Below are positions 27,508 through 28,750 of a stretch of 64,000 bases of DNA, piece after piece (within the stretch, counting starts at the first letter, position 1; every line of letters begins with the position of its first letter). The notes under the pieces were generated by a model. It was given only the letters and a program-made list of their open reading frames with translations. It was not told the DNA's origin and did no database searches. Source of the DNA: Polynucleobacter sp. AP-Kaivos-20-H2 (GTDB lineage Bacteria; Pseudomonadota; Gammaproteobacteria; Burkholderiales; Burkholderiaceae); the NCBI RefSeq assembly GCF_018882215.1, contig NZ_JACVOX010000001.1:62001-126000 (forward strand), given 5' to 3'. The translations under genes and the position numbers were made by a program.

Positions 27508-28218
27508 ATGAACCAAGATCAACTAAAGCAAATGGTAGGCGAGGCGGCTAGAGATGAAGTCCTTAAGCTGCCTGCCGGACAGATTTTAGGTGTTGGCACA
27601 GGCTCGACTGCCAATTGCTTCATTGATGCGCTAGCTCCGCATAAGGATCATTTTGCGGGCACGGTATCGAGCTCTAACGCTACGACTGAACGCTTACTCA
27701 AACACGGTTTTAAGGTGCTAGACCCAAATGTTGTGCAAGGTCTGCCAGCTTATGTTGATGGGGCAGATGAAATCAATCCTTTGGGTCATATGATTAAGGG
27801 CGGTGGCGGAGCGCTCACCAGAGAAAAAATTATTGCCTCCATGGCAAAGCAATTTATCTGTATTTGCGATTCATCAAAACAAGTACCGGTGCTAGGCAAC
27901 TTTGCATTACCAGTAGAAATCATTCCTCTTGCGAAAGGCGTTGTGAGTCGTGAGTTGGAGAAATTAGGCGGAAAAGTTACCCTCCGTCTGGCAAAGAGCA
28001 CTAGGGCTGATCTTAATCAAACTCCTAGCGAGCCTTTTGTCACCGATAACGGTGGTTGGATCCTGGATATAGCTGGCCTGAAGATTGCCGACCCTATTCA
28101 GATGGAAGCGCAAATCAATCAAATCGCTGGTGTGATTACCGTCGGCCTGTTTGCTAAAGAAAAAGCCAATATTCTGTTGGTCAGCAACGCTGCTGGCGTT
28201 GCAAGAATTGCGCTGTAG
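27508..28218 (+). CDS. rpiA: Ribose-5-phosphate isomerase A
   Basis: RpiA interconverts ribulose-5-phosphate and ribose-5-phosphate. The 236-residue protein has the N-terminal phosphate-binding GTGSTANCFIDAL (about residues 32-44), the active-site motif DGADEINPLGHMIKGGGGALTREK (Asp/Glu pair at about residues 85-88 and Lys further on), and the C-terminal GVITVGLFA segment. It is divergent from tal. A stem-loop follows the stop within 10 bases. That stem-loop has its long T-run on the opposite strand and is treated below as the terminator of an antisense-facing small RNA. Confidence 0.95.
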   Translation: MNQDQLKQMVGEAARDEVLKLPAGQILGVGTGSTANCFIDALAPHKDHFAGTVSSSNATTERLLKHGFKVLDPNVVQGLPAYVDGADEINPLGHMIKGGGGALTREKIIASMAKQFICICDSSKQVPVLGNFALPVEIIPLAKGVVSRELEKLGGKVTLRLAKSTRADLNQTPSEPFVTDNGGWILDIAGLKIADPIQMEAQINQIAGVITVGLFAKEKANILLVSNAAGVARIAL

Positions 28219-28221
28219 AAA

Positions 28222-28382
28222 TTAAAAAACCCGACGGGGTATGCCCATCGGGTTTATCTGCCATGATATGCATGGCGCAGATAATCGGAAGGTAATTAGT
28301 TCCGACATCTATGAGTGCACAGATGCGCTCATCTTAAGTGGCTTTCGCCAATGTGAGTGTGACACTAATTCTGTCTCACCAC
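28222..28382 (-). ncRNA. Probable structured small RNA between yggX and rpiA
   Basis: No gene is expected here, yet the reverse strand shows a promoter, about 160 bases of consecutive hairpins and a terminator. Hairpins in transcript order are 28379-28353 (GTGAG/CTCAC), 28350-28339 (TGGC-GAAA-GCCA, a GNRA tetraloop), 28332-28311 (ATGAG/CTCAT), 28305-28285 (TCGGAA/TTCCGA), 28282-28256 (ATCTG/CAGAT) and the terminator 28255-28227 followed by six T. The GNRA loop and the T-run exist only on this strand. A 28-codon frame begins at 28308 but has no ribosome-binding site. I do not match it to 6S, 4.5S or tmRNA. A 3' leader of the yggX message is the alternative. Confidence 0.55.
28227..28255 (-). 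terminator. Intrinsic terminator, strongest on the reverse strand
   Basis: AAACCCGA pairs with TCGGGTTT, and after one mismatch GGG pairs with CCC around a small loop. Read on the reverse strand it ends in TTTTTTAAT, a good U-run. Read forward it ends only in TTTATC. It may also stop rpiA transcription weakly. Confidence 0.75.
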
Positions 28383-28388
28383 AACTTC

Positions 28389-28416
28389 ATCCTACGCTTA
28401 TCGTTGGCAGTGTCAA
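28389..28416 (-). promoter_or_regulatory. Sigma-70-type promoter for the small RNA
   Basis: On the reverse strand a perfect -35 TTGACA (28416-28411) is separated by 16 bases from TAGGAT (28394-28389). The predicted start is near 28382, just before the first hairpin. Confidence 0.5.
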
Positions 28417-28477: not shown

Positions 28478-28750
28478 TTACTCTGCAGGCGGTACGTAAC
28501 CTTGAGCCATATCAGCACCACCCTCAAAGAAGTACTTTTCTACCTGCTTTAAGAGGTACTGACGTGCACGTGGGTCGGCCATATTGAGGCGGTTTTCATT
28601 AATCAGCATTGTTTGGTGCTTTAACCAAGCAGCCCAAGCTTCTTTGGAGACTTGATTCCAAACCTTCTTACCTAGCTCGCCTGGAAGCGGGGCAAAATCC
28701 ATTCCTTCAGCTTCTTTATTGAGTTTGATGCATTGAACCATGCGTGCCAT
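28478..28750 (-). CDS. yggX: Fe(2+)-trafficking/oxidative damage protection protein YggX
   Basis: YggX is a small cytoplasmic protein that protects iron-sulfur clusters and takes part in iron handling. The 90-residue protein begins [16 protein letters not shown], with the conserved Cys at position 7, and shows PGELGKKVW and [16 protein letters not shown] segments that define the family. Length is typical. It lies 42 bases downstream of argA on the same strand, so the two may be co-transcribed. Confidence 0.94.

Follow-up and report, generated by a model that had tools for sequence, protein, structure and literature searches.

A conserved promoter-RNA-terminator cassette of Polynucleobacter, found beside yggX and at other genomic sites

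Polynucleobacter are widespread, free-living freshwater bacteria. The closest described counterpart of the RNA considered here is HRC-28-1, a motif that Brewer et al. (2021; PMC8632094) presented with 33 examples, mostly from this genus. It has six stems with a terminator as the last, PRK05408 upstream and rpiA downstream in the opposite orientation. Its authors suggested that it might belong to the 3'-UTR of the gene upstream (PMC8632094). Another structured RNA named after the same genus, the Polynucleobacter-1 motif (RF01718), figures in a list in PMC2864571. That motif has no match, permissive threshold included, in the window, by which we mean the whole 64,000-nucleotide stretch of DNA that was analysed.

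More familiar RNA classes also bear comparison. 6S RNA (RF00013), whose shape is one long bulged stem, is similar in length, is structured and is encoded by an independent gene, but the window RNA is a row of hairpins; the single RF00013 match of this genome (60 bits) lies at C5:829446-829664, outside the window, and the preliminary description of the locus was right not to recognise the RNA as 6S. Hfq-associated trans-acting sRNAs share with it a sigma-70-type promoter, a length of 160 nt and a U tail, and the genome has an Hfq gene, whereas the window RNA, a candidate Hfq binder, is more highly structured than most of them and has no recognised seed. At the gathering score, Rfam 15 yields nothing in the window but a tRNA, and none of its families matches the RNA. 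In a permissive scan anti-hemB, trpB, SNORD126 and STnc310 scored far below the cut-off and were rejected; the likeness to anti-hemB (Burkholderia RNA 7; RF02837) is a weak covariance match over hairpins 5 and 6 (22.8 bits against a gathering score of 49.5), to an 81-position model that has no counterpart of hairpins 1-3.

At the locus examined here, the RNA lies on the reverse strand between yggX and a convergent gene:

27508..28218, forward strand: open reading frame, downstream convergent neighbour, which we take to be rpiA (recognised from its sequence and so named in the preliminary description)
28224..28383, reverse strand: body of the sRNA, about 160 nt, its predicted 5' end set by distance from the -10 element
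28389..28394, reverse strand: -10 element TAGGAT, by pattern, with a 16-nt spacer here
28411..28416, reverse strand: -35 element TTGACA, by pattern; TTGAC is present in 89/89 gaps and in 11/11 fetched copies elsewhere
28478..28750, reverse strand: open reading frame of yggX, upstream neighbour, whose product is an oxidative damage protection protein

The RNA ends at a distance of 5 nt from the stop codon of rpiA. Among the matches listed, nine of the ten best plasmid homologues of yggX are annotated as oxidative damage protection protein. A BLAST search with the region found it in 92/151 genus genomes, from which 90 loci were fetched (G083 and G096 were left out there, and G096 was fetched later); yggX, the gap and a convergent rpiA follow one another in 89 of these, and in the remaining locus (L063) the contig runs out before yggX. 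Genus, yggX (PRK05408) upstream, convergent rpiA and six stems with the terminator last all agree with HRC-28-1 as its authors describe it, the six hairpins here being seven helices, two of them in hairpin 4. We take the window RNA to be HRC-28-1 on this basis of genus, neighbours, orientation and stems, rather than by letter-by-letter comparison with the published consensus. The preliminary description had put it forward as possibly new, a claim that falls, since HRC-28-1, which shares its genus, neighbours, orientation and arrangement of six stems, appeared in print in 2021 (PMC8632094). A second paper using the name was not found in the literature searched, nor were other studies of this RNA among the matches listed in the literature on Polynucleobacter and RNA. 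Where the published description gives 33 examples and a possible 3'-UTR, we find a conserved promoter belonging to the RNA itself, copies elsewhere and presence in 126/186 genus genomes. The RNA has been known since 2021, and our reading of it as a stand-alone gene differs from the published 3'-UTR suggestion.

The promoter is the first point at which the two readings part. On the reverse strand, TTGACA-16-TAGGAT, noted in the preliminary description, is indeed present at 28416-28411 and 28394-28389. It is the sole match in the window with at most one mismatch, at least one match appears in 25/100 shuffles, and a consensus scan of the window finds 2 promoter-like sites against 1.6 expected; since a one-mismatch promoter is not rare in the window alone, the case rests on comparison. 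TAGGAT itself departs from the sigma-70 consensus -10. Across the 89 yggX-rpiA gaps, the -10 reads TAGGAT in 84 and TAGCAT in 5, and the spacer is 17 nt in 72 and 16 nt in 17. Mean pairwise identity over the same gaps is 0.25 upstream of the -35, 0.90 in the -35, 0.52 in the spacer, 0.98 in the -10 and 0.75 in the RNA. Thus, both elements are kept at a fixed spacing while the DNA before them is not conserved, which is the pattern of a promoter followed by an RNA gene.

The RNA itself folds with a minimum free energy of -63.2 kcal/mol, compared with -38.8 +/- 4.4 for shuffles (z -5.6; 0/200 shuffles as low). An alignment of 87 distinct RNAs, from which one identical RNA had been removed (88 to 87) and L057 omitted for its altered terminator, gives an RNAalifold consensus of 47 pairs, 23 of them with pair-keeping changes on both sides:

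28353..28382, reverse strand: hairpin 1, 10 pairs, 7 with two-sided changes; CAG...GUG around the loop is kept (84/87)
28339..28350, reverse strand: hairpin 2, with a GNRA tetraloop (UGGC-GAAA-GCCA)
28311..28332, reverse strand: hairpin 3, 9 pairs, 6 with two-sided changes; the loop AUCU-N-U is kept
28279..28310, reverse strand: hairpin 4, two helices with an internal loop, 8 pairs, 5 with two-sided changes
28260..28276, reverse strand: hairpin 5, GCCAUG...CAUGGC, 6 pairs, 4 with two-sided changes; 100% of cells paired
28224..28254, reverse strand: hairpin 6, the intrinsic terminator with its U run; stem 28254-28228, then T

Fold and consensus thus agree with the six successive hairpins followed by a terminator that had been proposed from the single sequence, the GNRA loop being that of hairpin 2, and the comparison of this gap in relatives that was proposed with them bears out the prediction, with compensatory changes in 23/47 pairs and the promoter in 89/89 gaps. 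In the 87 RNAs 98.4% of base-pair cells are paired and none of 500 shuffles reaches any of five measures, a test that is inflated by relatedness; slid structures have just 36-39% of cells paired, although a consensus-derived structure tends to beat its own slid versions. The two-sided changes are stronger support than either of these tests. In a second alignment of 54 more diverse RNAs (42 of the 87 loci, L164 and the 11 copies at other sites), 35/47 pairs have two-sided changes and 0/500 shuffles do as well, in an alignment that was fitted to the model and leans towards it. Compensatory changes in the aligned sequences therefore support the predicted six-hairpin structure. Against covariance model R1, which includes the window sequence, the window RNA scores 162.9 bits.

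Individual hairpins vary in different ways. The loop of hairpin 2 is GNRA in 84/87 RNAs (GAAA in 77, GCAA in 4, GTAA in 3), and the other three differ. At L087, L089 and L164 a longer hairpin stands in place of the GNRA hairpin, and this subgroup branches first within the group that has the RNA at yggX. Hairpin 6 is the least varying part, with 7/10 stem pairs invariant in the main set and a U-G pair kept in 86/87. Its stem (28228-28254) is more invariant than a terminator seems to need, and it may act on both strands, for rpiA as well as for yggX.

Mechanical open reading frames overlap 28224-28416, but none is gene-like, in keeping with the earlier view that no protein gene lies there. A complete frame of at least 20 aa occurs in 31/87 RNAs, and the longest frames (at least 15 aa) begin at differing positions among the 87 homologues, the commonest start being one TTG shared by 23. 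We read the RNA as non-coding on the strength of these differing starts rather than of a formal coding test. A second copy in its own genome, or long complementarity to it there, was rejected, the best other BLAST match being only 24 nt (E 0.17).

Comparison within the genus thus shows a self-contained cassette: a predicted promoter of the sigma-70 type, an RNA of about 160 nt with six hairpins, and an intrinsic terminator, all of them conserved. We consider it probable that this is an independently transcribed sRNA gene of Polynucleobacter with its own promoter and terminator, probably trans-acting and most likely Hfq-associated; the promoter, the fold and the occurrence at other sites strongly support the proposal, already made in the preliminary description, of a structured small RNA that has a promoter and a terminator to itself. 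RNA polymerase would start near 28383 and stop in the T run near 28224. The RNA would act in trans, and most likely it would associate with Hfq and regulate mRNAs by base pairing through a conserved loop, for which the pyrimidine loop of hairpin 3 or the loops of hairpins 1 and 4 are candidates. Hfq is encoded in the genome (103.5 bits); ProQ was rejected as a partner, there being no match to the ProQ/FinO domain (PF04352) in the same genome.

The manner of action is less certain than the gene. The RNA has no long conserved unpaired seed, and so a protein-binding RNA fits as well as a base-pairing one: it might act by 6S-like or CsrB-like titration of a protein rather than by pairing with mRNAs. 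Six consecutive hairpins with few conserved single-stranded stretches suit such a role, as do the conserved loop letters (GNRA in 84/87, AUCU-N-U and CAG..GUG). CsrA sites, however, have GGA in a loop, and the conserved GGA of the consensus is, by inspection, in a stem, and 6S is a separate locus. We regard this alternative as possible but doubtful.

The occurrence of the RNA at other sites bears on whether it is a gene in its own right. Eleven fetched copies in ten genomes lie away from yggX, with the same promoter at the same distance to the RNA: in all eleven, TTGAC is followed after a 17-nt spacer by a -10-like hexamer (TAGGAT in 5, TAAGAT in 3, and TAGCAT, TAGAAT and TAGAGT in 1 each) that stands exactly 5 nt ahead of the RNA. 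These copies carry the whole cassette. In seven of the genomes (G068, G127, G062, G109, G096, G010 and G176) yggX is located elsewhere, and at L159, L161 and L162 (G124, G103 and G053) the fetched flanks contain neither yggX nor rpiA. Neighbours and orientation vary between sites. Seven copies are near a PIN-domain gene, six within about 0.2 kb and L161 at about 0.9 kb, and six of the seven are also convergent to a polyketide-cyclase-like gene; the others adjoin azlCD (L156, in G010) or lie between a radical-SAM/HemN_C gene and a solute-binding-protein gene (L157), between HD-domain and TctC genes (L158), or between a cupin gene and an open frame without a Pfam match (L155).

Absences have the same unit. 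The yggX-rpiA gap measures 217-291 nt where the RNA is present (89 loci) and at most 98 nt in 28/28 genomes where it is absent, 25 of them at 11-98 nt and 3 with overlapping genes; of the 30 genomes inspected for this, the other two were G160, which has the RNA at yggX, and G031, which has no rpiA in the flank. In a midpoint-rooted tree of RpiA and YggX from 118 genomes, two short proteins that leave several supports weak, a first group of 11 has no RNA; in a group of 12, six genomes carry it at other sites and six not at all; and in a group of 95 it sits at yggX, the exceptions being four losses and one copy at another site. Copies at other sites together with absences as a unit indicate a cassette that relocates and can be lost whole; the direction of the moves depends on this tree. 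These comparisons show a predicted cassette that occupies different genomic sites, is absent as a unit from some relatives and is untied to yggX. Its conserved promoter, varied sites and unit-wise absence make it a testable stand-alone sRNA gene, one with a defined predicted transcript, a predicted 5' end and natural absences among close relatives, with G064, G087, G137 and G169 among the genomes that lack it.

Beyond these loci, model R1 matches 127/186 genus genomes, or 126/186 without G169, whose 26-bit match is a terminator remnant. Nine genus genomes score 43.7-58.5 bits, and eight of them were fetched, G120 being left out. When 32 genus genomes (31 of the 59 without a match, and G169) were searched again permissively, the best other match was a terminator remnant in G137 (25.3 bits); model R2 gave nothing above 23.3 bits in the genomes searched again, and the promoter was not found at the weak matches L168, L169, L170, L176 and L177. 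A family search of 398 genomes, run without R2, returned 49 genomes of the genus itself and, besides them, only G382 (28 bits); an order search of 399 genomes returned six of the genus and seven others at 25-36.5 bits, with G196, which belongs to the same family, scoring highest (36.5 bits, E 2.6e-6). We rejected G382 and the seven as members, there being no promoter (by eye in G382, by pattern in the seven) and the alignments shown resting chiefly on an ordinary terminator. Searches of this size can fail to return members of about 50 bits, as happened in the family search with G068, G120 and G124, all three of which the genus search had matched. The RNA is thus likely restricted to the genus Polynucleobacter as far as these sequence searches reach, although diverged copies outside it could be missed. 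All 27 stretches with the exact pattern are assigned by name to Polynucleobacter or to uncultured beta-proteobacterial or Burkholderiaceae MAGs, and phage carriage was rejected, as none of 20 viral stretches with an exact 16-mer matches the covariance model in the DNA searched.

A bolder formulation would see here a new class of autonomous, relocating promoter-RNA-terminator gene that arose within Polynucleobacter, is nearly always single-copy and serves as a global trans regulator, possibly by binding protein. We hold this only tentatively and think it rather unlikely.

The published suggestion of a 3'-UTR can be set against the same comparison. Under it (PMC8632094), the RNA would be a structured 3'-UTR of the yggX mRNA; it would then protect or regulate that mRNA, and there would be no separate gene. 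The RNA does lie on the same strand directly after yggX in 89/90 loci, and a scan of the window found no other reverse-strand terminator-like site between the two. The yggX stop codon is only 13-74 nt before the -35 in the 89 gaps, so that transcripts reading through from yggX could also include the RNA as their 3'-UTR. A mere 3'-UTR would always follow yggX and be promoterless, whereas 89/89 gaps and the 11 other-site copies have promoter sequence. The -35 and -10 keep their fixed spacing although the preceding DNA varies, the copies elsewhere keep promoter and RNA without yggX, and some relatives keep yggX without the RNA. The comparison leaves an independent transcription unit better supported than the 3'-UTR, which appears improbable to us.

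That the RNA regulates an adjacent gene in cis, for instance yggX or rpiA, as an antisense RNA or an attenuator, is more improbable still. Such a role would accord with the short distance between the RNA end and the rpiA stop codon in the window and with the same-strand open frame that follows the RNA at two other sites (L155 and L157). Yet neighbours and orientation differ between sites, and duplexes of the RNA with the yggX and rpiA starts are matched by 160/200 and 58/200 shuffles, respectively, in a crude mononucleotide control confined to the window. Pairing of the hairpin 3 loop to the yggX start (ACAGAUG in the window) was rejected: the loop changes in relatives and yggX does not follow, its start context being the same in the RNA-less L122.

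That yggX and rpiA merely share a bidirectional terminator here, everything else in the element being neutral, is scarcely credible: the terminator hairpin is the least variable and in two genomes (G137 and G169) only its region is kept, but the promoter and hairpins 1-5 are conserved, with compensatory changes, and the copies elsewhere hold the whole cassette. As part of the independent sRNA gene, the terminator probably also ends the yggX and rpiA transcripts at the yggX-rpiA site, its use by rpiA being suggested by the convergent arrangement.

A few genomes merit separate mention. In G169 (L124) and G137 (L122), nothing but the terminator region of the lost sRNA is left in the yggX-rpiA gap, apparently through recent deletions that spared the shared terminator. 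G176 is a draft of about 140 contigs with 2% contamination; its two diverged copies (L157 and L158), on different contigs with unrelated neighbours, could be a true duplication or contamination. In G010 (L151), yggX contains an in-frame TGA and the RNA adjoins azlCD (L156) instead of yggX, possibly reflecting decay of the yggX-rpiA site after the RNA had relocated.
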